In this document: piece after piece, positions 10,154 to 28,468 of the stretch | Numbering within the stretch: the first letter of the stretch is position 1 | Layout: the number at the start of each line of letters is the position of its first letter | Origin: Flavobacteriaceae bacterium F08102 | GTDB taxonomy: Bacteria; Bacteroidota; Bacteroidia; Flavobacteriales; Flavobacteriaceae | Assembly (NCBI GenBank): GCA_023015935.1 | Contig: JALKAY010000004.1 | Coordinates: forward strand, 372,001-436,000 | Length of the DNA stretch: 64,000 nucleotides | Direction of reading: 5' to 3' | Position numbers and translations under genes: made by a program | Notes under the pieces: model-generated | What the model saw: only the letters and a program-made list of their open reading frames with translations | What the model was told of the DNA's origin: nothing | Database searches by the model: none

Positions 10154-10681
10154 CTACTTCAACGGTAGGTCGATGGATTTAGTAACAGGTGGAAAACACT
10201 TGTGAATATCACAGGTCTGATAATACATTCCACTAGTAATCTTCGCTTCGTTGGCAAACGCATCAACCGTACAATATTGTACAAACACTACCTCATCTTC
10301 ATAAACATAGATTCCCTCGTCATAGGGTTTGCTCTTTGGTGTTTTCCATTCCCCAATCGCAGTGACCCCTTTGGGGAGTTCCAACTTGAGTTCCGTAGTG
10401 ATATACGGTGCTGTTTCGGGTACATAGGCATAGATATGCCAACCTATTTCAACAGACGCCTTCATTACCACCGCCACTTGCGACTTATCATCAGACCAAA
10501 CTAACGTTGCGTTCACAGCTACAGGATCCATGGCATGCGTTTTATCCAAATGCAAGTTGGCTCCCGCTTTTTCAATTTTTTGTTTCAATTCTGGTGACAC
10601 CTCGATCGACTGTGCCCAGCCTGAGGATACAAAAACTAGAAAACAAACTAGAAAACTATACATGTTATTCATCAAATTCAT
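10154..10681 (-). CDS. Stand-alone DsbD N-terminal (alpha) domain protein
   Basis: 175-residue exported protein: signal peptide about 1-24 (ending GWAQ), then an immunoglobulin-like DsbD alpha domain. The redox pair is visible as YYQTCDIHKCFPP, Cys157 and Cys162, matching the C-x4-C form found in Bacteroidetes DsbD. In full-length DsbD this domain takes electrons from the membrane domain and passes them to periplasmic thioredoxin-like partners. No membrane or gamma domain is encoded here, so it must rely on a DsbD/CcdA elsewhere or act alone. It is the last gene of a seven-gene operon with four TlpA-like proteins; its ATG follows the upstream stop after 1 nt, suggesting translational coupling. 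Confidence 0.85.
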   Translation of the reverse strand: MNLMNNMYSFLVCFLVFVSSGWAQSIEVSPELKQKIEKAGANLHLDKTHAMDPVAVNATLVWSDDKSQVAVVMKASVEIGWHIYAYVPETAPYITTELKLELPKGVTAIGEWKTPKSKPYDEGIYVYEDEVVFVQYCTVDAFANEAKITSGMYYQTCDIHKCFPPVTKSIDLPLK

Positions 10682-10682
10682 T

Positions 10683-12248
10683 TTATTTTGAAATCAAAGC
10701 TGCAATTTCCTTTTCACTACGTGGTCTAACCTTTGGATTTGCATCCGCATCATCAATCATCCAAACAAAACCTCCAACTTCTGAGAAGAACATATTGCTT
10801 TTGTTTTTATTAAACCATGTTCTCCATGCCTTCGCAGTAGGGAAATTTTCGAGGGTATAACGTAATAATATTCGCTTCGCTTTCGTTGTTTCCGTTCCAT
10901 TTTCTAACATACTAATTGCCTTATCAAGTACGTTTATATCTGTATTAGCGATTTGTAAACTCTTAATATCTTCATCTACGTTTAGGTCGTAAAACCCGTC
11001 AGGTTCTGAAAAGAAATAAGGTCTATTATCCTTAAGGTATTTTCGAATTGCCAAGGTGTCTAAGCCGGTAATTTTAGCCCATTTATTTCTCCCAATATTT
11101 TTTTCGAGATATTCTTCTCTCGTCTTGATTTTTTGTGGGTCACTGTTAAGGATCATCTTTTCACGTTGTGATAGCTCCTCACCTGCTGCTTGTTTTTTAG
11201 CAAATTCAGCCTTTTGTTTTACCGTGTTTTCGTTCAGCTCCTCATAAAATTTAACATGACTATCGTAAGACGCTTTCGTGGTATAAAAAGCCATTTCGTC
11301 AATAAACTGCTTCGTAGCGATACGTTCGTTGTATTTTCTCACAATTAATTTATCGTTTTTATGGGCATTCGTATACACAATAGCATTGACAAAAACTTTC
11401 TTGGCTTCTGCAGTCATATAATCAGGTGATCCTGCAAACCCCCATAAAAAGAAGTTTCCATGTCGTCCTAAGGCGACCGCTGTTTTTTGCTTAGAACACA
11501 CACCGCTTGAAATAATTTCTGCATTTGAAGAATCTTCAAATCCCCAACCACGAGCAACCATCCCTATTCTAAAGCCTTTCCCATCTTCATAGCCTTCTGT
11601 ATCAACTTCCCACATTGGAATTTCTTTGGGAACATCCATTCCGTCAAAAGCTTCTAAAACTCCACTTGGGGTAGCCATGTCTTTTAGGGTAATACTCGTT
11701 TTAAAGGGACCTTTAAAAATAGGGTGTTCTGTTTTTATATGATGTGCATGTCGATCTAAACACAAACAGTACCAATCGAGTTTAGACCCTAAACTACTTC
11801 CAATCACAGAAGACGTATGACCGATAAAAACAGCCGCACTGTTAAAATCGTCACTTACATATTTCGCGGGTTCCATACTCACAAACTCGCCAGTGACAGG
11901 GTCATTGTTAATTACACGTGGTTTTATGGGCGTAGGCGCTTCATCAAACACAGTCACATCGACCTCTTTCGACATCGACTCATTATAATCTCTCGCATCT
12001 ACAATTTTTACCGTGGTAAAATATTTTTCTAATAGGCTTTTAAAGGCGGGCATTCTTTTACCGTATTCTGCTTTAAAACGCTCTGCGGTCATTCCTCCAG
12101 AAATGGATGCTGATGCTAAGTTCTCAGGCATCGGTTTGTCGGCACTATAGCCCACATATAGTACACTGATGCTTTGTTTTTCTTGGGCAAATCCCGTAAA
12201 GGTCATACAGATAGCCAACGCTAAACTGTAAAATAATTTGTTTTTCAT
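10683..12248 (-). CDS. Secreted protein with ThuA/class I amidotransferase-like N-terminal half
   Basis: 521 residues with a signal peptide (about 1-21, TGFAQ). The first half looks like a ThuA or GATase1-like Rossmann domain: ISVLYVGYSAD, a strand before VDARDYN, AAVFIGHTSSV, then EHPIFKG and a late SPDYMTAEAKKVFVNAIVY, the usual end of ThuA-like domains. The second half (about 320-521) is helical and charged, with no motif I recognise; KYLKDNRPYFF and AWRTWFNKNK stand out. It sits between the last TlpA-like gene (22-nt gap) and the DsbD alpha gene (1 nt). The enzymatic role is unknown; the domain call is by motif pattern only and should be treated as tentative. Confidence 0.5.
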   Translation of the reverse strand: MKNKLFYSLALAICMTFTGFAQEKQSISVLYVGYSADKPMPENLASASISGGMTAERFKAEYGKRMPAFKSLLEKYFTTVKIVDARDYNESMSKEVDVTVFDEAPTPIKPRVINNDPVTGEFVSMEPAKYVSDDFNSAAVFIGHTSSVIGSSLGSKLDWYCLCLDRHAHHIKTEHPIFKGPFKTSITLKDMATPSGVLEAFDGMDVPKEIPMWEVDTEGYEDGKGFRIGMVARGWGFEDSSNAEIISSGVCSKQKTAVALGRHGNFFLWGFAGSPDYMTAEAKKVFVNAIVYTNAHKNDKLIVRKYNERIATKQFIDEMAFYTTKASYDSHVKFYEELNENTVKQKAEFAKKQAAGEELSQREKMILNSDPQKIKTREEYLEKNIGRNKWAKITGLDTLAIRKYLKDNRPYFFSEPDGFYDLNVDEDIKSLQIANTDINVLDKAISMLENGTETTKAKRILLRYTLENFPTAKAWRTWFNKNKSNMFFSEVGGFVWMIDDADANPKVRPRSEKEIAALISK

Positions 12249-12270
12249 TTTGTTCGTAGTTTATGGTTAA

Positions 12271-13467
12271 TTAATAGCCAAATAATTCTTTTAATTTTGC
12301 ATCTAGTTCTTCCTTAGACGGATTTCTAAGGATTATTTTTTCATTTTCATCCATTAAAAATGTAGTCGGTAAAAAGGGTACTCCGTATTTGGCAGCAACA
12401 ACCCCCCATTGGTGATTTTCACTTTGATCGTATAAATGCATCCATGGAAGTTCATCCTCCTCAATGGCATTTCGCCATTTTTGCTCTTCATCGGCCGTTC
12501 CTATCCCTACTACTTCAAAACCATCATCGTGATAGGTTGCATACAATTCTTTTAAATGAGGAAAAGATGCTCTACAAGGCACACACCAAGACGCCCAAAA
12601 ATCGACTAGCTTATATTTTGCTTTTACTTCAGAGAGTTTTTGTTCCGTACCATTCACATCCGTTAAAGAAAAATCAGGTGCAATAGAACCAACACCTAAA
12701 TTCTTAAACAAATCATTATACGTTTTTTCGTAAAACTTGAACATGGCGGTATGTGTAGCTTCGCCCTTAAATAGTGGATAGACCTCTTTCATTTCTTCCT
12801 TAGACATTCTTCCTTCACTAAATTGAAATCCTAATACCCAAGGAGCTACAGGAGAGTTCGGATGTTCTTTGACATAGTTAATAGCATAATTTTTACGCTC
12901 CTTTGTTCGCTCTATTTGAAGTGCACTAAACTGTGCCGCCTTTAATTTATAGGCTTCAATTTTTTCTTCATCTTTGGAGGTAATCACTTTTTCCATCTCA
13001 GCACGTAAGTCTACTAACGGTTGGAATTTCTCCTGATTTAGAATACTGTCTATCTTGGCCATTTGTTCATCAAAACGTTGTTGCATTAGCGATCCGGTCA
13101 CCTTTGCTTTAAGGTAGTTTCCGCGATCGGCCTCGGCTATGTCAAACGCTAAGGTAATGGGACTGTTCTCTAAAAAGAAACCACTATGGTAGGTATCGCC
13201 AATCAATATCATTACCTGATCAGGGTGTTCAATGCTCCCTTTGAAGTTGAAAACACCACTTACCATTTGTGTACTGTCAATTACTTTGCGTTTGGCTCTT
13301 CGGTCAGCAAAGTTATTTTCAACCAAACGAATAGTCGCTTCGTCTAGTCCTTTAACCGTACCGTTAATGGTGTAGCCCTCGAAAGAAGGTTCTTTTTTAC
13401 AACTCGTTACTGCTAAAATAATCACCATACTTATGGTAAGAAATACGTGTAGTTTTTGTTTGTTCAT
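12271..13467 (-). CDS. TlpA-like thioredoxin lipoprotein with DUF4369 (paralogue 4 of 4)
   Basis: 398-residue envelope thiol-disulfide oxidoreductase. Signal peptide with lipobox VTSC (Cys23), a DUF4369-type beta domain (about 30-130), a helical linker, and a TlpA/AhpC-TSA thioredoxin domain (about 260-398) with VDFWASWCVPC (Cys295, Cys298) and the cis-Pro region GVPFLPTTF. It is very similar to the proteins at 13486 and 15893, including the same WRNAI and ENHQ stretches and the C-terminal KLKELFGY. Likely a membrane-anchored disulfide reductase or isomerase in the operon that also encodes a DsbD alpha domain. Confidence 0.93.
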   Translation of the reverse strand: MNKQKLHVFLTISMVIILAVTSCKKEPSFEGYTINGTVKGLDEATIRLVENNFADRRAKRKVIDSTQMVSGVFNFKGSIEHPDQVMILIGDTYHSGFFLENSPITLAFDIAEADRGNYLKAKVTGSLMQQRFDEQMAKIDSILNQEKFQPLVDLRAEMEKVITSKDEEKIEAYKLKAAQFSALQIERTKERKNYAINYVKEHPNSPVAPWVLGFQFSEGRMSKEEMKEVYPLFKGEATHTAMFKFYEKTYNDLFKNLGVGSIAPDFSLTDVNGTEQKLSEVKAKYKLVDFWASWCVPCRASFPHLKELYATYHDDGFEVVGIGTADEEQKWRNAIEEDELPWMHLYDQSENHQWGVVAAKYGVPFLPTTFLMDENEKIILRNPSKEELDAKLKELFGY

Positions 13468-13485
13468 TTATATAAATTTTGTTAA

Positions 13486-14664
13486 TTAATAGCCAAATAG
13501 TTCTTTCAATTTGGTATCCAACTCCCCTTTTCTAGGATCGCGTAAAAGTATTTCTAAGGTACTTCCATCAAGTAGAAAGGTCGTAGGTAAATGTGGAACA
13601 CCATATTTATTTGCGATGGCTCCATAGGCATGATTTTCTGAAACATCATAGACATGCATCCATGGGGTTTGATCTTCTTTCACAGCCTTCATCAACTTAT
13701 CCTTCGTATCTGCGGTTCCCACCCCAATCACTTCAAAGTCTCCATGGTTCTTGTATTGCGCATATAATTTTTTTAGATGAGGAAAAGAAGCTCTACACGG
13801 TACACACCAACTCGCCCAAAAGTCGACTAAAATATACTTCGCTTTTACCTCTGAAAGTGTAACGTCATTACCGGCATAGTTTTGTAAGGTAAAATCAGGA
13901 GCAATGGTGCCAACTTGTAAGTTTTCAAAGGCATTTTTATATACCTTAGTCATGTGTTCTCGATAGAAGAATGTTTTCTTGGCGTCTCCCGTAAAAAGAT
14001 GATAGTACTCCGTTAACTCTGCTCTTGTCATATTTGACTCAATAAATTGGTAACCTAATACGTGGACAGCTACAGGTGAATCTGGATGTTCCTTAACATA
14101 GTTAAACCTCAACTGCTTTACGGCAGCTTGTTGCTCTTCAATTAAGGGAGTTAGTTCATCAAGCAGTACTAGCGCCTGATCAACCCCACTTTTATCTCCT
14201 GCTCTTTTTGCCGTATTCAACATGATACTTACACTGTTAATCGTGTCGTACTTTTTATTTGCAAAGGTCGCAGCGGCTTGAGCATTCATTTCATTGAGTT
14301 CATCCGTCATTGAAGAACCCTTGACTACCGGGGTAAAGGAGTTGTCAATTAATTCAATGGACATATCCTTGTTTTCTAAGAAAAAACTCCCTTTGTAGGT
14401 GTCATTTACAGCAATATTCACATAATCTACGTGATCTACTTTACCTTTAAATTCGAATTTACCATTGCTTACAAGCGCACTGTCAATAATCGTCCCATTA
14501 ATAATTCCCGGAAGATTTTCAACCAATTTAACCCATGAATTATCAGCTGCATTTACCGTACCCTTAAGGTAATAACCATTGTGTTTAACCTCCGTTTTAC
14601 AACTCGTCAAGAGTCCCATTGAAATAAAAAAGAACCCGATGATTGTCGCAATATTATACTTCAT
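13486..14664 (-). CDS. TlpA-like thioredoxin lipoprotein with DUF4369 (paralogue 3 of 4)
   Basis: 392 residues: lipobox LLTSC (Cys22), DUF4369-like domain, helical linker, and a thioredoxin domain with VDFWASWCVPC (Cys287, Cys290) and GVPHLPTTF. The C-terminus KLKELFGY is shared with paralogues at 12271 and 15893, pointing to tandem duplication. It begins 7 nt after the CGPC-type gene and ends 18 nt before the next paralogue. The middle part (Asp/Thr-rich, with ADTKDKLMKAV) has diverged most, so the three copies probably differ in partner rather than chemistry. Confidence 0.93.
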   Translation of the reverse strand: MKYNIATIIGFFFISMGLLTSCKTEVKHNGYYLKGTVNAADNSWVKLVENLPGIINGTIIDSALVSNGKFEFKGKVDHVDYVNIAVNDTYKGSFFLENKDMSIELIDNSFTPVVKGSSMTDELNEMNAQAAATFANKKYDTINSVSIMLNTAKRAGDKSGVDQALVLLDELTPLIEEQQAAVKQLRFNYVKEHPDSPVAVHVLGYQFIESNMTRAELTEYYHLFTGDAKKTFFYREHMTKVYKNAFENLQVGTIAPDFTLQNYAGNDVTLSEVKAKYILVDFWASWCVPCRASFPHLKKLYAQYKNHGDFEVIGVGTADTKDKLMKAVKEDQTPWMHVYDVSENHAYGAIANKYGVPHLPTTFLLDGSTLEILLRDPRKGELDTKLKELFGY

Positions 14665-14671
14665 AATTTTG

Positions 14672-15847
14672 TTATTCTCTTAGTAATTCTTCCAACAAAG
14701 CAAAGGCCTCTTCCCCTGATCCTAAATAGCGTTTTACAATTTTCCCTCTTGGGTCAATGATAAATTTCGTAGGAAAACCTTGCACATTAAAACCGGTTAC
14801 AAAATTATCAGATGAATTTTCTTTAACGCTCATTACCTGTTGCCATCCGTATCCGTGCTCCTCTACAAATTTTTGAACTTTTTCTTTAGTATCTCCAGAG
14901 TTGATACCCAACACTACCAACTTGTCTTTATATTTTTCTTGAAACGCTTTCACCTGTGGCATTTCTGCAACACAGGGACCACACCATATTCCCCAAAAAT
15001 CAATTAATACATATTTTCCACGGAGCGACGTAATATCAAATTCTTTTCCATCTAAGGTCGAGGTGGTTTTGATCGCAGGTACTGGTGACCCTTCGGCTGT
15101 ATTTAAGATTCCGTTTATGCGACTTTCAACGGTTTTGTAAAAACTCAATCCACTGTGTTCTTTTGAAATAGAATTAAAAATCTCAATAGCTTTATCATTA
15201 TCGATCTGTGTACGAAGCATCAGATCATTCAAATAGTACATGGCTGCTACAGTATTTGGATTTTCTTCAACGAATTTAATTCTCGCTAAACGTCCTTCTT
15301 CACTCAATTCTTCCGCTTTTTTATTAATTTCCTGAATCACTAAAGAATCTGTTTCATGGGTAGCTTGTACCGCTAAGTTTACAGTTGTATTGTAATTAGG
15401 ATAAGCGATCTTGTTAATGGCTGCCAAACTATTGTTATACTCATCCCCCGAAGGATACGCATTCATAAAGTCGGTAGCTTCCCCACTCACCTTTATGTCG
15501 GCCCCAGGAAAAGCGAAAAAAGTGAACAACATCGATTTGGTTGGAAAATACCCTTTTCCATCCGCAGGTTTTTTGAATAATTTATTGTTTGGATCACTAA
15601 AATCGGTATAAGCCGTGATTATATTTAATTCAGAAATGGTATCTGAAAAATTGATTTTCCCATCAACTACATGAATGGTATCCGCGGGAGTGTCTCTTGT
15701 ATATTCTTTATCAGGATGTCTAAAAAACAAATTTCCTGTCAACCCTTTTATTTCTCCAGTCAAGGTAAATTGCTTTGGATTAGATTCTTCTGTTTTACAG
15801 GACATTATACTTAGTGCTCCTATGAGTATTACTACTATTTTTTTCAT
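14672..15847 (-). CDS. TlpA-like thioredoxin lipoprotein, CGPC type (paralogue 2 of 4)
   Basis: 391 residues from the ATG at 15847; the longer frame would need a TTG at 15856. Lipobox IMSC (Cys17), DUF4369-like N-terminal domain, then a thioredoxin domain with IDFWGIWCGPC (Cys289, Cys292) and a cis-Pro at GFPTKFI. Its active site is the canonical thioredoxin CGPC, unlike the CVPC of its three neighbours, and its linker and C-terminus (LLEELLRE) are unrelated to theirs. It interrupts the tandem series of CVPC copies. This difference suggests a more reducing partner or a different substrate. Confidence 0.93.
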   Translation of the reverse strand: MKKIVVILIGALSIMSCKTEESNPKQFTLTGEIKGLTGNLFFRHPDKEYTRDTPADTIHVVDGKINFSDTISELNIITAYTDFSDPNNKLFKKPADGKGYFPTKSMLFTFFAFPGADIKVSGEATDFMNAYPSGDEYNNSLAAINKIAYPNYNTTVNLAVQATHETDSLVIQEINKKAEELSEEGRLARIKFVEENPNTVAAMYYLNDLMLRTQIDNDKAIEIFNSISKEHSGLSFYKTVESRINGILNTAEGSPVPAIKTTSTLDGKEFDITSLRGKYVLIDFWGIWCGPCVAEMPQVKAFQEKYKDKLVVLGINSGDTKEKVQKFVEEHGYGWQQVMSVKENSSDNFVTGFNVQGFPTKFIIDPRGKIVKRYLGSGEEAFALLEELLRE

Positions 15848-15892
15848 TTTAATCAATGTATTATCGTTTGTATATATTTTAAAAATGGCATT

Positions 15893-17101
15893 TTAATGAC
15901 CAAAAAGTTCTTTTAATTTAGCGTCGAGATCTTTCTTCGATGGATTTCTCAATAGGATGGTGTTGTGCTCATCCACCAAGAACGTAGTTGGCAAAAATGG
16001 AACGCCGTACTTTTTCGCTACCTCCCCATACTGATGGTTTTCACTTGTGTCATATACGTGTATCCACGGAGTCTGATCTTCTTTAATGGCATTTCTCCAT
16101 TTCTGTTCTTCATCAGCCGTACCGATGCCTACCACCTCAAAACCTTCTTTATGATAGGTTTTGTACAACTCTTTTAAATGAGGAAAAGAAGCTCTACACG
16201 GTACACACCAACTCGCCCAAAAATCAACCAATTTAAATTTTGCGTTGACCTTCGATAAGGTTATGTCATCGCCGTCGACCGATTTTAACGTAAAATCTGG
16301 GGCCGAGTTTCCAACGCCTAAGGATTCAAAATTATCAGTGTATACTTTGGTCATATAGCCCTTATAAAAACTAGTTTCTTTAGCTTCCCCTTGAAAAAGT
16401 GTATAAAACTCCTTGAGTTCATCTTGGGTCATTCTTCCTTCCGAATACTGAAATCCTAACACATAAACGGCTACTGGAGAACTGGGATTCGCTTTCACAT
16501 AATCATATTTTATTTTTTTATAGGCCTCGTTACGTTCATTCATAATAGGGCGTAATTCTTCTTGAAGCGCGAAGGCATTATCCATATCCTCTTTTTTATC
16601 AGAAGCTTTAGCGTCAGCGAAAGCCTTACGCAATTGTTCATCATAGGTTTTATACTTGTCATTGCTAAAGGTAGCCGATGATTTAGCCTCTTGAGCGGCA
16701 AATTCATCATGGCTTTTAGACCCCCTAACTGTAGGTGTAAATTGGGTATTTCTACCTTCGAGTTTAGATACATCAATATCCATAGAAATGGCGCTGTTCT
16801 CCAACATAAATCTTCCTCTATAGGTTCCATCTATGGCTAAATTTGCCATATCCACATGCTCAATTATTCCTTTAAAGCTAAATGTACCATTACTAATTAA
16901 GGTACTGTCGAGTATTGCCGGTTTAGCTCCTTCAGCCCCGCTACCTACCTGCATTACAATATAGACATTATCAATCCCTTTAACGGTTCCCGAAATTATA
17001 TAACTGGAAACATCTTGAGATTCAGTGTTTTTTTCTTTACAGGAAACTAGCAAAATAAAGGCCATTAAGACCATACCAAATTTGACACCGTAGTTTTTCA
17101 T
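15893..17101 (-). CDS. TlpA-like thioredoxin lipoprotein with DUF4369 (paralogue 1 of 4)
   Basis: 402 residues: lipobox LVSC (Cys21), DUF4369-like domain with SGTVKGI and ENSAISMDI, helical linker, thioredoxin domain with VDFWASWCVPC (Cys299, Cys302) and GVPFLPTTF, ending KLKELFGH. It starts 15 nt after the stop of the haloperoxidase fusion gene, so the two are almost certainly co-transcribed. Nearest relative is the gene at 12271, with which it shares the stretch EEQKWRNAI after the active site. Confidence 0.93.
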   Translation of the reverse strand: MKNYGVKFGMVLMAFILLVSCKEKNTESQDVSSYIISGTVKGIDNVYIVMQVGSGAEGAKPAILDSTLISNGTFSFKGIIEHVDMANLAIDGTYRGRFMLENSAISMDIDVSKLEGRNTQFTPTVRGSKSHDEFAAQEAKSSATFSNDKYKTYDEQLRKAFADAKASDKKEDMDNAFALQEELRPIMNERNEAYKKIKYDYVKANPSSPVAVYVLGFQYSEGRMTQDELKEFYTLFQGEAKETSFYKGYMTKVYTDNFESLGVGNSAPDFTLKSVDGDDITLSKVNAKFKLVDFWASWCVPCRASFPHLKELYKTYHKEGFEVVGIGTADEEQKWRNAIKEDQTPWIHVYDTSENHQYGEVAKKYGVPFLPTTFLVDEHNTILLRNPSKKDLDAKLKELFGH

Positions 17102-17116
17102 TTTTATTATTCTTTA

Positions 17117-20100
17117 TTATTTTTTAATTATTAATTGACGATGGTTTTGCTGTTTATTATAAACATTAATAAGGTAAATCCCCGTAGGTAGATAAGCTAC
17201 TTCATAGCCATTCAACCCATTTTGTATTCCCTCTTTTCTAATCAGTTTACCATCTAGACTATACACTAAAATTTCACTTTGTTCGACTAAATTTGTAAAG
17301 TAAAGTAGATCGTTCGTCGGATTCGGATACACTTCAATTTTTCTTATTGCGAACACCCCTCCTTTAGGTTCAAAATATGGCAAGGCATAATTGTACGCTT
17401 CTACCCCAATTTTCTCACCAATAATCCGTCCTGGGATATCATCAGCTGGGGGATGAATTCCTCCCCATATTCGCGATAAACTCGTTTGATCAGAGGCATC
17501 CCGATAGGTAGCCCACTGCAAGGTAACATCCACCGAAGGTCCTTTTTCGAAGACTAAAAACTCATTTTTCTTCGCTACAAATTCTCCCATTCCTCCAGGG
17601 AAATAGGCATCTCCTGTAACCAAGGTCATAACTTCGGCAGCGGCTCGTGAAAACGTAGAATGTCCTGAAATAAATCCTGCAAACGGAGGCGTTACAAAAC
17701 TGGGGCGTTGATATGGCCACCAGTTTTCAGCTAAAATCCAACCTACTCCTGCAACATCCGTTTTAGCGTCACTAATAAAATCATGCCCTTTCCAAGCATA
17801 TAATTTAATTTTCCCAACGTGTTCATTATTGGCACCACTCAATGGATCACCCGCTTTAATCACTTCGATATACCCTTCTTTTAAGGCAATTCCTTGCGGT
17901 TCATAATGGGGAAGTGACGGGTCAGTACTTTGCCCTAATTCGCACATGTATCGTATGGCAGAAATCGGACGGATATAATCGTACCATCCTTTAATTCCCC
18001 AGGCCGTTACAGCCGCATCATGCATCGCTCCTCCCAAAATAAAATAGGCTTTTACATCCCATTCTAAGGCGTCTAACTCCGGCCCTTTTCCATTGAATCT
18101 TGGAACAAACTGTTCGTGATCTGTTACATAATTCAATATGGTAAACCAATGTCCTGGTGGGGTTTCTGAATCTGGACCATCAGCCCAAAACTCTGCCAGT
18201 ACTCTTGTATAATCAGCTCGTGGCACTACTTGGGGTTCATAAGGCTTTCCAGTTTTTGGATTTACCGTATAACCGGTACTGATATCCCCTCCTTCTAGTA
18301 CATTGAAAAAATTAGGATACTCCTCATACGTTGTAGGAAATAAGCTACTATCAATATTGCCAATCGTGTTCGGTGAAATATCCCATAGTACGCCATCGGT
18401 TGGGTCTAAATGTGAGCTCCACATCGAAACCAATGAAAAATTCCACTTGTACTGTTCTCTTGAAGCTTGGCTCCCCTCACTTAACCGCGGCGGCATTTCG
18501 GGATTGTGATATACAATAAAATCATGCCCATCTCTTCGTAAAACTTGTTTCTCACGCTCAGATAAAGCAAACGGATGTACAGCACCCCATTCGGGACCTA
18601 AAAATGTTGGCGTTGCGCCAGGTATTAAATTACCGCTCTGATCTATAAAGGTATTAAATGTCAACGGTTGCCATCGGTTTGATTCTATTATTCCCGTTGC
18701 ATGACCAGATGGATTTAGCACTAAGGCGGGATTTACAGGTTCATAAAAATCGTTGTCATACCCTGTGGCTTCCCTAGCGTTATCATTTAAACCATAGTCA
18801 ATTATAAGTTGCCCAACATAATTCCCTAAATCGGCTGGATTACCTGAAGTATAATCGACTCCGTTATAACTACTATCGTAACCCAATTGCTTCATCAATA
18901 CTTCAAACCGTGCTAGAGATTCATTAGCACTCGGTGAATTTTTAAAACGATGCATTAACAGCCTATAAACCGCATAGCTCATCGCTTCTTTTTTAGACTC
19001 TTCAATAGGCTTATTTGAGGTAAACGGCTCCAAACTACTTTTAAAGTTATGCACCACGTTTCCAGTCAAATAAGGATTCGTTCCTTCATAAATTGCCCAT
19101 GTATCATACATGGCAATGGAGGTGTGAAATAGGTTTCGAGCATGTACAATAGGCCGGGCAAAATCCCCTCTAATTGCCTCTAATAATACTTCGTTCCACA
19201 ACCGAGCTACCGAATAATCACGTAATCCATTTGAAATATCGAGTTCAACGGTTAATTCTTGTACATCACCGAAACAGAATTTATTATTTTCAATAACCGT
19301 TAGCTTCCCTGTTTCAGCCAATCCCCATACAACCTCAATACGCCCTGTACCTTGACCACTAAATATCGTACCGCCTTCAACCGTCCATGTAAGTACAGAA
19401 CCTGAAGTTGACGGATAAGTATAGACTTCCGTTTTATTAAATCCCGAGCTCATTACTCCAGAAATCTCTCCTGGCACAAGGTATTCACAACTACCGTTAT
19501 CAATGGTGGCTAATGGGTTGTAATTACATGACAATGGATCCGTACAACCAATCACATCGGTTGTAGAAATCTTCTCTTCTTTAATAGTATACCGTTGATT
19601 TGCAGAAAGGGACGTGAATTTTTCGGTATGATCTTTCGACCAAACCACCTTAACCTCATCGATTACACTAGCATTGGCCACTCCAAAATGCAATACTAAC
19701 GAGTGCTGAGAGCTATGGCTTCCTTGCCCATGGACCTCCTGTATTAATTGCTCGCCATTAACGGTAAGAATTACCTTGGCTCCAATGGCATCTCTATTGA
19801 TATTTGTCCCTTCTAACTTAAATTGTATCCAATTATTGTTAGCACTTTGATTTGGATTTAACTGATTAATGAAAAAGTTAGAGTGATTGGTAGACCCCGC
19901 TTGTGGTGATTTCCCTTGTACAACTGTAAAGATATCTAAATCACCGTCTTGATCAAAATCGCAATACGCCATCCCACGAGCAATATTAGGATCATCAATT
20001 CCAGCTGAAATAGACACATCGGTAAACGTATTATCCCCTTGATTTACAAACAATTTATTCGGGTCATAAGCCCCTGTTCGATAAGGCGCATTTGAAAATA

Positions 20101-21187
20101 TATAGCCATTGGCGACAAATAAGTCGGGCCAAGTATCATTGTTGACATCTAGAAAGGCAGTTCCCCAACTTGTCGATAAATACTCCGAACCATTTCCATC
20201 GAGCGAATACTTATTTTCTGTTCCCGCATAGGTACTTTCATCCGTAAAGTGTTGGTTCCCATCATTCTTTAACAATACATTTCTTCCCAAATTGGCAACA
20301 TAATAGTCCAAATGACCGTCTTTATCATAATCTCCAGAGGCAATCCCCATTCCAAAAACCCCAATATCGAGTCCCGTAGTCGTAGAAACTTTGGTAAAAG
20401 TCGTTACAGGATCATTATTTTGAAAAATTGCATTGGGTTCTATAAATGCACCAAAATCATTGGCTAAGTAAATATCCGTGTCGTTATCGAGATCAAAATC
20501 GGTAGGCATTGCGGCAAGCGCACAACCACTATCAGACAAGCCTAATTCGGCTGCTTTTTCTGTAAACGTTCCATCTCCATTATTTTGATAAAACTGATTT
20601 GGATAACAATCGTGATCAAAAACCACATTTCCATTTTCATCATGTGGGATTTTTGAGTTTTCTATATAATTAATGACATAAATATCGAGGAAAGAATCAC
20701 GGTTATAGTCTATCATCACCGCCCCCATAGAAAAGCTCGGAATAGTAATCCCGGCGCTCTCACCTATTTCTATAAAGCCATTGCCTTTATTATTTAAAAA
20801 GAGTAAATTTCGTTTTACATTTTTGGCAAAATCAGGTTCACTCCAAGTTGTGACAAATAAATCTCTATAGCCATCATTGTTTATGTCCCCACTGCTTACC
20901 CCGGTAGTGTAATAATCTTGTGTAATCCCTAAGCCACTATCGACGATGAGTTCAAAAGTGCCATTGCCTTTATTGCGATAAAGCACATCGGCTGATTTAC
21001 CTCCAGTGATGTATAGGTCCTCCCACCCATCATTATCGTAATCAAAAAACACACAACCACCACCAAACTCTCCAATTGCTTCAAATTTATGGGCTATCCC
21101 AACATTCGCAGACCGTTCAGTGAACGACTGCGCATAGATAGTCACATAGACTAAAAACAGTAAAATGGAAAGTAATTTTTTTTTCAT
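17117..21187 (-). CDS. FG-GAP / UnbV(ASPIC) / vanadium haloperoxidase fusion with T9SS sorting domain
   Basis: 1356 residues from the ATG at 21187 (MKKKLLSILL); the longer frame would start with GTG. Order: signal peptide (ends YAQ); FG-GAP/VCBS repeats (about 20-440) with many DxDxDxx calcium loops such as DYDNDGWEDLYI; an UnbV/ASPIC domain (about 455-540, NRDAIGAKV, LHFGVA); a Cys-rich linker (GCTDPLSCNYNP); a vanadium-dependent haloperoxidase/PAP2 domain; and a C-terminal T9SS type A sorting domain (VYPNPTNDLLYF, LPTGIYLINV). All three haloperoxidase/PAP2 motifs are intact: K-x6-RP (KGWYDYIRP, about 1065), SGH (about 1174), SR-x5-H (SRIWGGIHPP, about 1240). So the protein is secreted by T9SS and may oxidise halides with hydrogen peroxide, or act as a phosphatase, on the cell surface. 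First gene of the seven-gene operon. Confidence 0.92.
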   Translation of the reverse strand: MKKKLLSILLFLVYVTIYAQSFTERSANVGIAHKFEAIGEFGGGCVFFDYDNDGWEDLYITGGKSADVLYRNKGNGTFELIVDSGLGITQDYYTTGVSSGDINNDGYRDLFVTTWSEPDFAKNVKRNLLFLNNKGNGFIEIGESAGITIPSFSMGAVMIDYNRDSFLDIYVINYIENSKIPHDENGNVVFDHDCYPNQFYQNNGDGTFTEKAAELGLSDSGCALAAMPTDFDLDNDTDIYLANDFGAFIEPNAIFQNNDPVTTFTKVSTTTGLDIGVFGMGIASGDYDKDGHLDYYVANLGRNVLLKNDGNQHFTDESTYAGTENKYSLDGNGSEYLSTSWGTAFLDVNNDTWPDLFVANGYIFSNAPYRTGAYDPNKLFVNQGDNTFTDVSISAGIDDPNIARGMAYCDFDQDGDLDIFTVVQGKSPQAGSTNHSNFFINQLNPNQSANNNWIQFKLEGTNINRDAIGAKVILTVNGEQLIQEVHGQGSHSSQHSLVLHFGVANASVIDEVKVVWSKDHTEKFTSLSANQRYTIKEEKISTTDVIGCTDPLSCNYNPLATIDNGSCEYLVPGEISGVMSSGFNKTEVYTYPSTSGSVLTWTVEGGTIFSGQGTGRIEVVWGLAETGKLTVIENNKFCFGDVQELTVELDISNGLRDYSVARLWNEVLLEAIRGDFARPIVHARNLFHTSIAMYDTWAIYEGTNPYLTGNVVHNFKSSLEPFTSNKPIEESKKEAMSYAVYRLLMHRFKNSPSANESLARFEVLMKQLGYDSSYNGVDYTSGNPADLGNYVGQLIIDYGLNDNAREATGYDNDFYEPVNPALVLNPSGHATGIIESNRWQPLTFNTFIDQSGNLIPGATPTFLGPEWGAVHPFALSEREKQVLRRDGHDFIVYHNPEMPPRLSEGSQASREQYKWNFSLVSMWSSHLDPTDGVLWDISPNTIGNIDSSLFPTTYEEYPNFFNVLEGGDISTGYTVNPKTGKPYEPQVVPRADYTRVLAEFWADGPDSETPPGHWFTILNYVTDHEQFVPRFNGKGPELDALEWDVKAYFILGGAMHDAAVTAWGIKGWYDYIRPISAIRYMCELGQSTDPSLPHYEPQGIALKEGYIEVIKAGDPLSGANNEHVGKIKLYAWKGHDFISDAKTDVAGVGWILAENWWPYQRPSFVTPPFAGFISGHSTFSRAAAEVMTLVTGDAYFPGGMGEFVAKKNEFLVFEKGPSVDVTLQWATYRDASDQTSLSRIWGGIHPPADDIPGRIIGEKIGVEAYNYALPYFEPKGGVFAIRKIEVYPNPTNDLLYFTNLVEQSEILVYSLDGKLIRKEGIQNGLNGYEVAYLPTGIYLINVYNKQQNHRQLIIKK

Positions 21188-21386: not shown

Positions 21387-22061
21387 CTAATTTCCCAAAC
21401 CTTTTATGTGCTCAATTTCCATTTGAACTTTCCAGCTTCCAAATTGGTAAATTTCTACTTCAACATACTCAAGCTCATAGGTCGCTCTAAATTTCAGCGG
21501 ATATGTGACATTGGTCAGTTCGATAAAATCTTTTTGATTGCGGATGTCTTGAAATGAACCGCTCTGCAACACAATCGTAGCATTTGGATTGAGCACAGGT
21601 GAGTTGTCCTTTCGAATATAGATACGAACGGCATTCATCTTATCATCCATTCTCGTAAAACGGACGGACGTAACATTTTGTGAGTTGTCAATTTTTTTAT
21701 AAGGTTTTTCATAAACACCGATATATGTGTCTTTTTTCCAAAACCCAATTACAATACTATCTTTTGTTGTATTTGTTTTATAAGTCAATTTTCCTTGACC
21801 ATTTTTTTGTCCTTTTTTAAATTCTCCTTCATAAACATCTCCATTGCTCCAGGTATATATTCCTTTACCATCTGGATATCCTTTTTTAAATTCTCCTTCA
21901 TAACTATCTTTTCCTTTAGCAATCCCTTTTCCATCTGCCTTCCCTTTTTTACAATCGCCCGAATAGGATTGATTAATGTCTTTTAAAAGTACTTTACAAT
22001 CTTGAGCATTTAAGCCGCTAAGCATGAAAGAAAAGCACATGAGTAAAATAATATGTTTCAT
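21387..22061 (-). CDS. Exported MORN-repeat protein (copy 1)
   Basis: 224 residues with a signal peptide (about 1-19, LNAQ). MORN repeats (about 35-95) are clear: YEGEFKKGYPDGKGIYTW, then YEGEFKKGQKNGQG, preceded by a shorter degenerate copy. The C-terminal half has no recognised domain. A same-length paralogue lies at 62986-63660, in the same place relative to its SusD gene (SusD, terminator, MORN). It is separated from module B by a strong terminator and from the haloperoxidase gene by 199 nt. Its function is unknown; MORN repeats generally act in membrane association or as scaffolds. Confidence 0.85.
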   Translation of the reverse strand: MKHIILLMCFSFMLSGLNAQDCKVLLKDINQSYSGDCKKGKADGKGIAKGKDSYEGEFKKGYPDGKGIYTWSNGDVYEGEFKKGQKNGQGKLTYKTNTTKDSIVIGFWKKDTYIGVYEKPYKKIDNSQNVTSVRFTRMDDKMNAVRIYIRKDNSPVLNPNATIVLQSGSFQDIRNQKDFIELTNVTYPLKFRATYELEYVEVEIYQFGSWKVQMEIEHIKGLGN

Positions 22062-22203
22062 TGTCTTTAGGTTACCGTGTGAATCGTGTTTTTATTTTTT
22101 CCAACAAACTATCTGTCGAAAGACGAATTGGTTTTTCCTATTTAGAAACTATCCAATTCTTATAAAAGGATTATTTAATTAAAATCCCCTTTGTGATGTA
22201 TAA

Positions 22204-22237
22204 AAAAACCTATTGGAATTGCTTCCAATAGGTTTTT
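22204..22237 (-). terminator. Rho-independent terminator of module B
   Basis: Perfect 15-bp stem AAAAACCTATTGGAA (22204-22218) and its complement (22223-22237) with loop TTGC. On the minus strand it ends in a T-run 10 nt after the SusD stop codon. Confidence 0.95.
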
Positions 22238-22247: not shown

Positions 22248-23735
22248 TTATTCGTAGCTAGGATTTTGAACTTCAATTCCTCCACCAGCTCTAACGGTTA
22301 AGATTGGATAAGGCAAGATAAATTTATCTGGGTTGGTAGCCGAAGGTTTATGGTCAGATACTTGGAATCCTGTTCCAAATCCATCTTCCCAATCATAGCG
22401 AACTAAATCAAACCAAGATTCTCCCAATTCACCAGATAACTCAACCATTTTTTCAATTCTCACCGCTTCTAAGAATTCCTCATAAGTAATGGTTGCTGGA
22501 TAGGTTTCAAAACCGTCCCCCCCTGTTGTGGTAGCTCCAGCTCTTAAACGAATTGCATTCAACGCAGCCAATGCATCACTCGATACCGACATGGTATTAC
22601 GCGCATCTGCTTCCGCATAAATTAAATATACTTCAGACAATCGTGAATGATAAATTAAATCATATTCTTCACCAACACTAAATACGTTAGTGTATTTTAA
22701 GTTATTCGTTCCAAAAAAACCAGGGGTCGTTGTACTCGCGATTCTGTTTGAATCGTAATCAATCGTTTGCGAACCTATAGTCATGGAACCTGACATTAAT
22801 TCTGCGAGGTAAGCATCATTATATCCAACGGCAAATCCCCAACGGGTATTTGGTAGTGGAGCCTGTAAATCCCCTCTCAGACCAAACAAAATCTCAGGAT
22901 TGTCATACATATCACTTGTTGTATTATCAAACATAGCAGCATAGGTTGGAGACAAATAAAACGATCCTCCAGCTTCATCAATGATGGCTTTCGCTGTACT
23001 TGCAGCCATTCCATAATCACCTTGATACAAATAGACTTTCGCTTTGAGGGCTCTTGCTGCAATTTTATTCATATAACCTCTATTGTCAGGTAAATCAAGT
23101 CCATTTGCAATTACATAATCAAGGTCCTCATGAATTTGGGCATAAGTTTCTGCCACCGTATTTCGCGGAAATGCTTCGCCACTTCGTATGGGTTCAAGCC
23201 TAAGTGTTATTCCGTATTCTGAGCTTGTATCATACCACTGTCCGTAATAACGCAAGAGGTAAAAATGTGCTAATGCTCTAATTCCATAAGCTTGAGCCAT
23301 AGTTTCTGCCTTTCCTGTTGGACTAGAAAAGCTTCCTTCACTTAGGTCTGCTACTTTTTCAATAATCCAGTTTGCATCATTAATAGCTCTGTAGAGTGCA
23401 GCCATCCCAGTAAAGGTTAGGTTATCGCCAGCATCTTCTTTATTTAGCGGTTGGTTAGCAATCCACGAAGGAATTTCCTCTCTATAGAAAGACGTTCCAG
23501 GTAAAATTGCACCACTTAATGCTTCGGGAATTAAAAGCATAAAACTAGGCTCTTCTTTTAAACTTGAATACGCCCCAGCCAACGCTAATTTTGCAGACGC
23601 TTCATTGTTAATAGCTGTTTCGGCATTTAATTGATATGCCAATTCGATGTCATCAATAGGTGTAGTAAGTTCACACGAGGTAAGACTTAAAATGGCTACA
23701 CTTAAAAAACTTATATATTTTGTTATTTTTTTCAT
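22248..23735 (-). CDS. SusD/RagB-family surface lipoprotein (module B)
   Basis: 495-residue SusD-like lipoprotein. Lipobox LTSC followed by ELTTPIDD; an N-terminal SusD-like helical region with YRAINDANWIIE and YGIRALAHFYLLRYYG; and the C-terminal RagB/SusD part with YLIYAEADAR, ALNAIRLRAGA and GESWFDLVRY. It starts 10 nt after the SusC stop and ends just before a strong terminator, closing the fecR-susC-susD transcript. Ligand unknown. Confidence 0.93.
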   Translation of the reverse strand: MKKITKYISFLSVAILSLTSCELTTPIDDIELAYQLNAETAINNEASAKLALAGAYSSLKEEPSFMLLIPEALSGAILPGTSFYREEIPSWIANQPLNKEDAGDNLTFTGMAALYRAINDANWIIEKVADLSEGSFSSPTGKAETMAQAYGIRALAHFYLLRYYGQWYDTSSEYGITLRLEPIRSGEAFPRNTVAETYAQIHEDLDYVIANGLDLPDNRGYMNKIAARALKAKVYLYQGDYGMAASTAKAIIDEAGGSFYLSPTYAAMFDNTTSDMYDNPEILFGLRGDLQAPLPNTRWGFAVGYNDAYLAELMSGSMTIGSQTIDYDSNRIASTTTPGFFGTNNLKYTNVFSVGEEYDLIYHSRLSEVYLIYAEADARNTMSVSSDALAALNAIRLRAGATTTGGDGFETYPATITYEEFLEAVRIEKMVELSGELGESWFDLVRYDWEDGFGTGFQVSDHKPSATNPDKFILPYPILTVRAGGGIEVQNPSYE

Positions 23736-23745: not shown

Positions 23746-26700
23746 TTAAAAAGTTACGTTTAATCCGAGCGTGAAGCTTCGTACATTTGGATATCCCCAA
23801 CCACCATCTGAGGCGGCATCAACAGAAGAAGTATTGGTTACTCCACGTAAAATACTCTCTGGGTTTGGTCCTGCGTAATTGTGAATCAAGAATAAGTTAT
23901 TTCCGGTTAAGGTAAACTTCGCATTACTTAGTCCTACTTTATCTAATAAACTAGAAGGGAGATTATACCCTATAGACGCTGAACGTAACGACACATACGA
24001 CGCATCTGAAACAAAGCGTGAATTATTGGTTTGCCATGAACGTGAACCAGCTCTAGGGAATTTTGAATCTAAATTATCAGGTGTCCATGCATTTTCTAGA
24101 TCGTTACGTTGGTAATTTGGCATTCTATCAAAATCGATAAAGGCTAAAAATTCATCGCCTCTTCTAATTTTGTCAATACCTTGTACAAATTGAAAATTAA
24201 ACGAGATATCAAAACCTTTGTACGACATGGTATTGTTCCATCCCCCAAAGAAATCTGGTACATTACCATCCGCAAGACGCACGTCATCTTCAGTGGTATA
24301 TTCGCCATCACCATCCACATCCCGAGCGATAAAATCTCCAGGTGCCAATAAATTAGGATCATACTGTCCGTCAGGTGCACTTGCATTTAAGGCATCGATC
24401 TCCGCTTGTGTATCAGCCGTTTTGATAATATCTCTTCCAAAAATGGTTCCTAAAGGATAGCCTTCAGTAACCCCGTAGTTTCCAAATTCGTTGGCTTGAC
24501 CACCTTTTAAGGCATCTACATTACTTTTGATAAATGAAACGTTAAACGAAGAATTCCACGTAAAGTTTTCGTTGCGTACAACGTCACCTCCCACTAAAAA
24601 CTCCCATCCTTTATTGCTCACATCGGCAACGTTAGAATAGTAATTAGGGAATCCTGTTTGTGCTGACAACGGCGTCAATAAAATTAAATCTGAAGTTGCT
24701 TTATCGAACCAAACAATTTCCGCATTTAAACGATTGTTAAAAAGTCCGAATTCTAAGGCAATATCTAATTGATTCGTTTCTTCCCAACGAATATCTTGGT
24801 TAGACACCCCTTGCAATCTAAATCCGTTCAATCCATTGTATTGGGTTGGATTATCTCCAAACCCACTTTCAACGGCCATTACTGGTCTAAATAAAAATGC
24901 TGGAAGGTTATCATTCCCTGTTTTTCCTGCCGAAACGCGAAGTTTCATCTGCGTGATGGTTGCGTTATCTTTTAAGAAATTCTCATTGTGCATATTCCAT
25001 GCTAAACCAAAAGAAGGAAAGAATCCAGTACGGTTATCTTCACCAAATTGGGTAGAGCGATCTGCACGACCAGTTAAGGTTAACAAATACTTATCGTCAT
25101 AATTATAATTCACACGACCAAACAATGAATTTAAGGCCTTTTGCGCAAAATCACTATTTCCGTTAAACACTTGTGAGGCAGAAGCGGGGTTTACCAAGAC
25201 AAAATCATCCGGGAATCCTGCAAAACTCACACCCGTTGCTTCATTTTCTGTACTATCCCATGACAATCCTGCCACAGCACTTAGGCGATGGTTTTCTTTA
25301 ATCGTGGTGTTATAGGTTAAGGTATTAGTGAAAATGATATTCTTAGATTTGTTAAACTGCGTCGTCAAAATTCCAAGTGGAGTTCCGCCACGTGCAAACA
25401 AATTACTATTTAAGCCATCAAGGGCCGCTTGTATCGTAAATGAAGGAAGAAATTCACTAACATCATCATTGGATTGATTAGCACTGAATTGCGTTCTAAA
25501 TTTAAGATTTTTAATTAGCTCAAGTTCGGCATACACACTAGAACGAATATTTTTACTTTCAATATTGTTTCTAATGCGTCCATCTTGACCCACGGGATTC
25601 ATATCAGGGTTTCCAAAAACAGGTAAGCCTCCATTATCGGTATAGTTCCCAGCGTCATCAAAAACAGGTACATCGGGTCTAAAAGCCCCAGGGTATCTTA
25701 AATTATCAACATCACTCGATTTATCAATACTATTGTTATAATTAATGGCAACCCCTACTCTTAATTTATCGGTTACATCGGCATCTAAATTAGCCGCCAT
25801 CGAATAGCGTTTAAATTTGCTATTGATAAAAATAGCTTCTTGATTCTGAACATTTCCAGACACGTAGTAGTTAATTCTATCCGTACCACCAGAAAGCGAG
25901 AGACTGTAGTCGTTCCACATGGCGTTTTTATTCCTTACCTCTTCTTGCCAATCGGTATTTGCATCTCCAAATGCAGGTACAGGTACCCCAGCAATTCCAG
26001 CTTGTTCCGTATAAAATTCTTTATATTCATCTACAGTCAAGAACTCATATTTAGTCTGAGGATTTTGAAATGTCGTATTTGTAGAAAAAGTAAATCTAGG
26101 TTTTGCACCGCGATTTCCTCTTTTTGTCTTAACAATAATTACACCGTTAGCTGCTCTTGAACCGTAAATCCCCGCTGCAGATGCATCTTTCAATATCGTT
26201 ATATTTTCAATATCTGCCGGATTAATAGACAAGAGTGGGTTTGATCTTGACCCTTGTAATAATCCATTTGCATCTCTACTGTTAGGATTAATATTAATTG
26301 GAATTCCATCAATCACATAAAGCGGTTGATTATCCCCATTAATTTGACTCAATCCTCTAATAACCACATTGGCAGCAGCTCCTGGTTTCCCTGTTCCAGT
26401 TACCATGACACCTGGTACTTTACCATATAAAGCGCGCTCAACCGTTTGAGTTTTAACTTGCTCTATTTCTTTCGCTTTAAGTGTTGTAACTGAACCGGTG
26501 AGATCTTTTTTAACAGTGGTTCCATATCCTACAACAACCACTTCATCTAAACGATCCTCACTCTCTTCGAGCACAATATCATAGGTCGCATTTTTAGAAG
26601 TAATTTTCATGTATTTAAATTTACTACCTAAAGCAACTATACCTAAGTAGAAATTTAAACTTGCGTCAATTTTGAACTTACCATCAAAATCAGTACTCGT

Positions 26701-27222
26701 TCCACGCGTAATATAATCTCTTGAACGATCAAACCCTTTCGCTGGCTCTTCACTTGTCACAAAGACTGTTGCCCCAGGAATTGGATTACCATCCTTATCT
26801 TTTACAGTCCCTTCAATTGGAAAAGTTTCCTGCATTGGAATGTTTAAGATAGGGTGCATTTTTCTTTTTACAATTACGGTATTATCCGTGAAATCGTAGG
26901 TACACCCAATCATGTCTAACCCTCTTTTCAAAAGCTTATAAGCCTTGATATTACCTTTCTTTACGTAAATATCAGGCGCATTTTGAATGTGTTCAGGTCT
27001 AAACACAAAATTGTATTCCGTTTGAGATTTAATTAATTCAAAAATCTCTTCAACCGAAATAATTTTATCCTCATTAATATTAATTTCTGCATTCTGTGAA
27101 AATCCCGCATCGGGATTTAAACTAAACACAGTCGTACAAAATAAGAAGATAAAGCTTTTCATCATTACTTTTAATAGCCTCCTTTTATCGTAAACGAAGG
27201 AGTTTGTCAATTTAAATTTCAT
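23746..27222 (-). CDS. SusC/RagA TonB-dependent transporter with STN signalling domain (module B)
   Basis: 1158 residues: long basic N-terminus and signal peptide (about 1-43, ending FSQ), STN domain (about 45-115), carboxypeptidase-like regulatory domain (about 135-215), plug with DASAAGIYGSRAANG, and an outer-membrane barrel ending SFTLGLNVTF with terminal Phe. The regulatory domain is followed by the usual TonB-box-like DEVVVVGYG. The STN domain implies signalling to the FecR encoded upstream. Met residues at 20-21 precede the hydrophobic signal core, as in the other four SusC proteins. Confidence 0.95.
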   Translation of the reverse strand: MKFKLTNSFVYDKRRLLKVMMKSFIFLFCTTVFSLNPDAGFSQNAEININEDKIISVEEIFELIKSQTEYNFVFRPEHIQNAPDIYVKKGNIKAYKLLKRGLDMIGCTYDFTDNTVIVKRKMHPILNIPMQETFPIEGTVKDKDGNPIPGATVFVTSEEPAKGFDRSRDYITRGTSTDFDGKFKIDASLNFYLGIVALGSKFKYMKITSKNATYDIVLEESEDRLDEVVVVGYGTTVKKDLTGSVTTLKAKEIEQVKTQTVERALYGKVPGVMVTGTGKPGAAANVVIRGLSQINGDNQPLYVIDGIPININPNSRDANGLLQGSRSNPLLSINPADIENITILKDASAAGIYGSRAANGVIIVKTKRGNRGAKPRFTFSTNTTFQNPQTKYEFLTVDEYKEFYTEQAGIAGVPVPAFGDANTDWQEEVRNKNAMWNDYSLSLSGGTDRINYYVSGNVQNQEAIFINSKFKRYSMAANLDADVTDKLRVGVAINYNNSIDKSSDVDNLRYPGAFRPDVPVFDDAGNYTDNGGLPVFGNPDMNPVGQDGRIRNNIESKNIRSSVYAELELIKNLKFRTQFSANQSNDDVSEFLPSFTIQAALDGLNSNLFARGGTPLGILTTQFNKSKNIIFTNTLTYNTTIKENHRLSAVAGLSWDSTENEATGVSFAGFPDDFVLVNPASASQVFNGNSDFAQKALNSLFGRVNYNYDDKYLLTLTGRADRSTQFGEDNRTGFFPSFGLAWNMHNENFLKDNATITQMKLRVSAGKTGNDNLPAFLFRPVMAVESGFGDNPTQYNGLNGFRLQGVSNQDIRWEETNQLDIALEFGLFNNRLNAEIVWFDKATSDLILLTPLSAQTGFPNYYSNVADVSNKGWEFLVGGDVVRNENFTWNSSFNVSFIKSNVDALKGGQANEFGNYGVTEGYPLGTIFGRDIIKTADTQAEIDALNASAPDGQYDPNLLAPGDFIARDVDGDGEYTTEDDVRLADGNVPDFFGGWNNTMSYKGFDISFNFQFVQGIDKIRRGDEFLAFIDFDRMPNYQRNDLENAWTPDNLDSKFPRAGSRSWQTNNSRFVSDASYVSLRSASIGYNLPSSLLDKVGLSNAKFTLTGNNLFLIHNYAGPNPESILRGVTNTSSVDAASDGGWGYPNVRSFTLGLNVTF

Positions 27223-27316: not shown

Positions 27317-28468
27317 TTAGTTTACAGTAATAAGTTTATCTGTAATGGTGAATTTCACATCACCCGTTTGTTCAATTTTTGATAAAATATTATTAATGGT
27401 ACCTTCTCTGGGTAATTTACCTGAGAAAACCATTTCTTTTTTGGCCATATTTGTAAATATTACATCCACATCATACCATCGTGAAAGCGTAACCATAATA
27501 TCTCCAAGCTTATCGTTTTCAAACACAAATAAGCCATTTTTCCAAGCCGTTTCATACGTTACATCTACCTTTGACAGACTGATATTATCATCTTTAATAC
27601 TCACCTTTGACTGTAATCCAGGGGTTAATGTTTCAAGCGCCACCCCATTGGTCACCGCAATCTTTCCTTCGACCAACGTAGTTAAGATATAATCATTTCC
27701 ATCGTACGCCTTGATATTAAATTCAGTCCCTAAAACCTCTACATCTTGCACTTTCGTTCCCACAATGAATTTAGACCCCTTGTGTGCTGAACTTTTAGAA
27801 ACTTCAAAATAAGCTTCTCCATAGACTAATTCAACATGACGCGTTTCTCCATCTATAAATTCTACGGGATATTTTAATTTAGATTCAGAGTTCATCCAAA
27901 TCCTTGTTTTATCAGCTAATTGCAAAAAGAATTCCCCTCCTCTAGGAACTGTTAAGTAATTGTAGGCAATTTTTGGTCGCTCCGTCACCTCACCACTTGG
28001 ACTATATACTAAAACCTCCCCGTCACTTTTCAAATTATCAGTTGCATACGTAGATCCTTTTTCAAGTGCTACCGTCGAACCATCACTTAATGTAAGAATT
28101 GCCTTATCAGTCCCGCTTTCAATCGTATTCTTGGTGACAATAGAATCAACAGGTGTTTCACTTTCCTTTTTAGGAAGTAACAGTACTAAGCTTATTAAGG
28201 CCAATACAGAGGCAGCAACGGCATACTTCCAATAAGCATTTTTAACACGTGGTTGTTGAATGTGTTTTTTAATAACTTTCCATACATCCGAATTAGAATG
28301 TGTAGTCATTTTAAGCTCTTCAAGCGTGAAATTCACTTTGATAAAGTCCGAAAACAAGTCAAGGTTATCATCTTGCTTAACCCACTGCGTTAATTCTACA
28401 ATCTCCTCTGTACTTATTTGATTCGTACAATACTTAATTATTAAAATTTCTATATGATCTGTTATCAT
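27317..28468 (-). CDS. FecR-family anti-sigma factor (module B)
   Basis: 383 residues: cytoplasmic sigma-binding region (about 1-75), one transmembrane segment (about 80-99), FecR domain with PRGGEFFLQLADKTRIWMNS and YGEAYFEVS, and a C-terminal DUF4974 domain (about 305-383). The partner sigma gene is divergent, 93 nt away on the plus strand. The CYCTNQ-type N-terminus (IIKYCTNQIS) resembles those of modules C and D. Predicted to hold the sigma factor inactive until the SusC signals ligand binding. Confidence 0.95.
   Translation of the reverse strand: MITDHIEILIIKYCTNQISTEEIVELTQWVKQDDNLDLFSDFIKVNFTLEELKMTTHSNSDVWKVIKKHIQQPRVKNAYWKYAVAASVLALISLVLLLPKKESETPVDSIVTKNTIESGTDKAILTLSDGSTVALEKGSTYATDNLKSDGEVLVYSPSGEVTERPKIAYNYLTVPRGGEFFLQLADKTRIWMNSESKLKYPVEFIDGETRHVELVYGEAYFEVSKSSAHKGSKFIVGTKVQDVEVLGTEFNIKAYDGNDYILTTLVEGKIAVTNGVALETLTPGLQSKVSIKDDNISLSKVDVTYETAWKNGLFVFENDKLGDIMVTLSRWYDVDVIFTNMAKKEMVFSGKLPREGTINNILSKIEQTGDVKFTITDKLITVN

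Follow-up and report, generated by a model that had tools for sequence, protein, structure and literature searches.

A SusCD locus with sigma/FecR genes and an exported thiol-reducing module in Bacteroidota, joined in a few marine flavobacteria by a putative vanadium haloperoxidase fusion

Introduction

Loci built around SusC/SusD pairs are usually read as glycan systems. The locus analyzed here shares with the known SusCD/RagAB importers under ECF sigma/FecR control a SusC (TIGR04056), a SusD, a FecR and an ECF sigma factor, above model cut-offs where these are curated, but its unit lacks a glycoside hydrolase and carries instead TlpA proteins, an orphan DsbD alpha domain (DsbDα) and a ThuA-fold protein with a CxC motif. 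Like the TlpA/ResA reductases of Bacteroidota that have DUF4369, its four TlpA proteins combine a lipobox, DUF4369, a redoxin domain and WCxPC, differing in that the four stand in tandem and three are close paralogues. The orphan domain shares PF11412, the redox cysteine pair and the fold (Z 11) with the N-terminal alpha domain of DsbD (DipZ), yet it is free-standing or fused to the ThuA-fold protein rather than to the membrane and gamma domains of DsbD. Residues ~24-295 of the ThuA-fold protein have the fold of ThuA-like proteins (1t0b, 4jqs) and class-I glutamine amidotransferases (Z 12.6), whereas it lacks detectable PF06283 membership, its CxC is invariant, and it has an additional helical region at the C-terminus, hardly covered by the fold search. 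The remaining gene encodes a domain with the fold (Z 27-31) and the invariant Lys, Arg, Ser-Gly-His, Arg and His of the vanadium haloperoxidases NapH1 (3w35), XhnO11 (9l8x) and Zobellia iodoperoxidase (4cit), fused here to FG-GAP, UnbV and PKD domains and a type IX secretion system (T9SS) sorting tail.

This locus, with its thiol module, was not found described in the literature searched, which covered subscription journals and preprints to a limited extent. A conserved version of SusCD equipped with a thiol-reducing relay of its own would suggest another nutrient class, namely oxidized or disulfide-bonded sulfur compounds or peptides, for soil, marine and gut Bacteroidota, and such a relay would give orphan DsbDα domains a defined partner.

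Results

Organization of the locus

The window, a 64,000-nt stretch of one contig of Flavobacteriaceae bacterium F08102, holds seven open reading frames at 10154-21187, all on the minus strand. Their intergenic gaps of 15, 45, 7, 18, 22 and 1 nt are those given in the initial annotation, the 45-nt gap shortening to 36 nt when the second TlpA gene is read from its upstream TTG start, and the clear terminator that it had described is present as a 13-pair stem with a T-run on the same strand (10129-10100; folding z -4.15). It had also taken the seven genes as one unit; the genes are as it listed them, but they belong to a larger locus, with SusCD upstream, and make up its distal part. Directly preceding the block, and overlooked previously, are genes for a MORN-repeat exported protein (21387..22061, minus strand; Pfam MORN; paralogues in L123, L125, L137, L139 and L148), a SusD-family lipoprotein (22248..23735, minus; Pfam SusD-like_3 and SusD_RagB, both above cut-off), a SusC/RagA TonB-dependent outer membrane transporter (23746..27222, minus; TIGR04056 at 795 bits against a cut-off of 368, with Plug and CarbopepD_reg_2), a FecR anti-sigma factor (27317..28468, minus; Pfam FecR and FecR_C) and, divergent from fecR, an ECF sigma-70 factor (28562..29182, plus; Pfam Sigma70_r2/r4_2; TIGR02985 at 132 bits against a cut-off of 126). 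The order is thus divergent ECF sigma, FecR, SusC, SusD, MORN and then the seven genes.

We assign the upstream genes to the same unit because paralogous loci show the same order. In the same genome, L123 reads sigma-FecR-SusC-SusD-MORN-TlpA-TlpA-ThuA-DsbDα, followed by an M16-type peptidase, and L125 reads sigma-FecR-SusC-SusD-MORN-TlpA-ThuA-DsbDα; both keep the order of the window locus but have no haloperoxidase, and the MORN gene comes after susD in the paralogous loci too. The SusC/RagA and SusD/RagB pair identifies a SusCD uptake locus, for which control by the adjoining ECF sigma/FecR genes is predicted from gene content. No carbohydrate-active enzymes were found among the Pfam matches of the unit, which consequently does not classify as a polysaccharide utilization locus. 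A strong hairpin with a T-run follows susD (22200..22237, minus strand; dG -18.8, z -6.4) and could be a terminator or an attenuator; the distal seven genes may therefore be a separate or attenuated transcript, and they may have a putative promoter of their own or be expressed by read-through past the hairpin.

Directly after the ECF sigma gene lie two short genes of the YeeE/TsuA type (Sulf_transp, thiosulfate-transporter-like; 29253-30236, plus strand; gaps of 70 and 3 nt). Genes of this kind were not seen to recur near ThuA in the relatives' loci, and a sulfur-nutrition reading based on them is only a lead. ECF sigma genes occur in the window at 8231-8824, 28562-29182, 30367-30981 and 39796-40404, most of them beside FecR and SusC/SusD and often TlpA. 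Elsewhere in the window, a PLP-dependent decarboxylase gene (48324-49562) follows a SusCD-TlpA set, with tyrosine/histidine decarboxylases as its nearest families, below their cut-offs, and a DUF1800-DUF1501 gene pair (52694-55781) has a T9SS sorting tail on its second gene.

Proteins of the thiol module

The four thioredoxin lipoproteins reported earlier are TlpA/DUF4369 proteins, all encoded on the minus strand: T1 (15893..17101; DUF4369 and redoxin, WCVPC), the more divergent T2 (14672..15847; WCGPC), and T3 (13486..14664; WCVPC) and T4 (12271..13467; WCVPC), which are ~51% and ~52% identical to T1. Each has as its cysteines exactly the lipobox Cys and the WCxPC pair, and with Pfam matches above cut-offs and WCVPC or WCGPC in 4/4 they belong to the TlpA/ResA thiol-disulfide reductases. 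TlpA genes are abundant in the genome, where one TlpA protein gives 49 matches, so their presence alone says little.

Likewise, the DsbD alpha assignment holds, DsbD_N being above its cut-off (PF11412, 32.4 bits against 25). The protein (10154..10681, minus strand) has a signal peptide and a CxxxxC pair, and many relatives have it fused to the ThuA-fold protein; the pair, as CxnC, is kept in 82/82 relatives, and the fold was recognized on a fused relative. At 175 aa it is the alpha domain only, with neither the transmembrane nor the gamma domains of a complete DsbD. Counts from a PF11412 scan of the genome are lower bounds, as that scan missed the window's own DsbDα, which hmmscan finds. Another sigma/FecR/SusCD/TlpA locus of this genome (L126 and L127, G000:C50:50000-89800) has an orphan DsbDα followed by a complete DsbD and no ThuA-fold gene.

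For the sixth gene (10683..12248, minus strand), described earlier as ThuA-like, fold and sequence gave different answers. A model (pLDDT 92.6) was built for a fused relative (L152), whose identity to the window protein is 61% across the region that they share. Residues ~24-295 of this model match ThuA-like 1t0b at Z 12.6 with 196 residues aligned, and residues 526-654 match Escherichia coli DsbDα at Z 11.3. The product is thus an exported protein with a ThuA (class-I GATase-like) fold, as judged from the relative's model, and with a C-terminal helical region. Canonical membership of PF06283 was ruled out by the absence of a Pfam match and an hhalign probability of 1.3%, and a search by sequence for a solved homologue found none that was convincing. 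Going by sequence order, the invariant C161-x-C163 would occupy the nucleophile strand position of class-I amidotransferases.

Conservation across Bacteroidota

When 84,980 species genomes were searched with the ThuA alignment, 156 relatives were recovered, and the 80 best loci were retained; the counts below rest on the 77 intact ones, which are the nearest relatives, so that proportions may differ in remoter ones. The CxC is present in 77/77 and is not a search artefact, because the search patterns lacked it. A DsbDα accompanies the ThuA-fold protein in 75/77 (42 fused, 33 separate). SusC is found in 71 of the 77 loci, TlpA in 57, FecR in 50 and sigma in 50; SusD was recognized in 38, and a further, divergent SusD-like cluster occurs in 39. 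Evolution therefore keeps together a thiol-reducing module and a SusC/SusD importer across Bacteroidota, and thiol reduction coupled to TonB-dependent uptake is the constant theme, because the CxC is conserved throughout and the cysteine pair of DsbDα is intact in all 82 proteins. The ThuA tree implies about three switches between the fused and the separate state, of which well-supported branches require at least two; the invariant CxC and this repeated fusion make the DsbDα-ThuA partnership directly testable.

The relatives span Flavobacteriia, Sphingobacteriia, Chitinophagia and Bacteroidales. Two more, a MAG assigned to Opitutaceae and a record that bears the name Paenibacillus (L189, L190), carry ThuA-DsbDα fusions; the Paenibacillus record is possibly misbinned, or its fusion transferred. 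Genome scans of the phylum and genus for ThuA found the window genome only, a result that conflicts, for the phylum, with the many Bacteroidota matches of the pattern-based scan and is limited by sensitivity or sampling. The gene is sporadic, occurring in 1/17 genus genomes and 8/299 genomes of the family sample.

This distribution bears on whether the module serves envelope quality control, folding or isomerizing cysteine-containing surface proteins such as the SusCD partners independently of any imported ligand. The usual role of DsbDα and TlpA is thiol housekeeping in the envelope, and here they stand beside SusCD; a housekeeping gene, however, would not be expected to be so sporadic, nor to be linked, as the ThuA-fold gene is, to particular sigma/FecR/SusCD loci whose SusC is divergent, and we regard this explanation as improbable.

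Proposed coupling of reduction to uptake

We tentatively favor reading the locus as a widespread Bacteroidota system in which a sigma/FecR-controlled SusCD importer and an exported thiol-reducing module handle a ligand with disulfides or oxidized thiols. SusCD would bring this ligand into the periplasm, cysteine-containing peptides being the most likely kind, and electrons would pass from cytosolic thioredoxin through DsbD and DsbDα to the ThuA-fold CxC and/or TlpA; once reduced by these, the ligand would be open to processing by peptidases, which in some loci are of the M16 type. In the window genome and a few relatives the locus has also gained, as a non-core addition, the T9SS-exported FG-GAP/UnbV/putative vanadium haloperoxidase, which probably acts extracellularly, on the substrate or its matrix. 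Some loci include peptidases, a complete DsbD or a SufS-like PLP enzyme, which favors cysteine-containing peptides as the ligand; complete DsbD (N-TM-thioredoxin) is found in 11/77 loci, while the frequencies of M16 peptidase (17/77) and of the PLP enzyme (7/80) weaken the peptide view. More doubtful, though possible, is the broader proposal that these loci make up a new, phylum-wide class of TonB-dependent importer, with a ligand that must be reduced after it crosses the outer membrane and a dedicated relay in which DsbDα, often fused, serves a new CxC enzyme of ThuA fold.

The main rival to a disulfide-bearing ligand is acquisition of a metal or metal complex (copper, haem or another soft metal), whereby SusCD would import the chelate, the CxC would be a metal-thiolate site, and DsbDα/TlpA would keep it reduced to bind or release the metal. 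ECF sigma/FecR pairs classically govern metal-chelate receptors such as FecA, and His is frequent, though not invariant, after the CxC (D-x-x-A-H). We nevertheless consider the metal route unlikely: the His residues near the CxC vary, no metal transporter turned up among the genes that recur near ThuA, and M16 peptidases recur instead.

The putative haloperoxidase fusion and its possible link to the thiol module

The first gene of the block (17117..21187, minus strand) encodes an accessory fusion of 1356 aa, recognized by Pfam/NCBIfam models, fold and active-site residues. The FG-GAP domain, UnbV region (about 19789-19586, minus) and T9SS tail (about 17332-17120, minus; TIGR04183 at 40.2 bits against a cut-off of 23, as for T9SS cargo) bear out the earlier description, to which we add a PKD domain. 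For the haloperoxidase domain (about 19237-17363, minus), Pfam matches are partial: DUF6851 is above its own cut-off, while VCPO_2nd, at 23.9 bits, falls short of its cut-off of 27, so that the vanadium haloperoxidase assignment is based on fold and residues. With a pLDDT of 86.6, the domain model matches NapH1, a bacterial chloroperoxidase (3w35), at Z 30.8 over 437 residues and the Zobellia iodoperoxidase (4cit) at Z 27, far exceeding the ~13 for acid phosphatases, and it has the two-bundle VHPO fold rather than that of a minimal PAP2 phosphatase. The vanadate-site residues of the domain (K427, R434, S535-G536-H537, R600 and H606) are invariant in 34 sequences. The domain is thus a putative vanadium haloperoxidase; the fold also supports phosphatase activity.

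The initial annotation had proposed a linked envelope redox system in which a surface haloperoxidase yields hypohalous acid and TlpA, DsbDα and ThuA repair oxidized envelope proteins or reductively process substrates modified outside the cell, which we take as halogenated. The linkage among TlpA, DsbDα and the ThuA-fold protein stands, phylum-wide and often with fusion, but the haloperoxidase does not define it. Its gene is found in 2/77 relatives, being absent from the other 75 and from both paralogous loci of the same genome, and 42/43 fusion loci outside this genome have no ThuA and DsbDα nearby (present in 1/43); conservation therefore rules it out as a core component or general partner. 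Conserved clusters lacking this gene were what the initial annotation had set as a refutation of its proposal. Common in Flavobacteriaceae, with at least 40 loci among 299 family genomes and the stand-alone domain in many more, the FG-GAP/UnbV fusion mostly lies elsewhere in the genome than the thiol module. The block with the haloperoxidase is nevertheless not unique to the window genome, where the fusion is single-copy, but is seen again in L148 (Flavivirga rizhaonensis), L054 (G006) and, lying further downstream, L163 (Aestuariivivens marinum); a facultative functional link between haloperoxidase and thiol module is therefore possible. These recurrences and the intact fold and vanadate site speak for the oxidant-repair proposal; the conservation counts speak against it, as does the unit itself, in which no methionine sulfoxide reductase was found, and we give it little credence.

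Within the family sample, four genomes (G000, which is the window genome, G006, G213 and G248) have both a ThuA gene and a haloperoxidase fusion, and the two are adjacent in 2/4, an outcome expected at ~1.5e-4 under uniform placement. The estimate was made post hoc, with the window as one of the two adjacent cases; leaving it out, adjacency is 1/3. L148 and L163, from a separate search, add support for the linkage. On the ThuA tree, with the window, L148 and L054 scored, haloperoxidase linkage needs three changes; despite this, a single inherited arrangement may underlie both the window block and that of L148, given their shared identities (SusC 68%, SusD 64%, MORN 59%, haloperoxidase domain 79%, ThuA 74%). 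A putative halogen-oxidizing enzyme has been added to the locus in only a few marine flavobacteria. In four other loci (L077-L080), a SusCD-linked cluster encodes FG-GAP/UnbV and haloperoxidase by two genes, the pair being one fused gene elsewhere; the L077 cluster also has a GH20 beta-hexosaminidase. L062 contains the FG-GAP/haloperoxidase fusion twice in tandem, with 15 nt between the copies.
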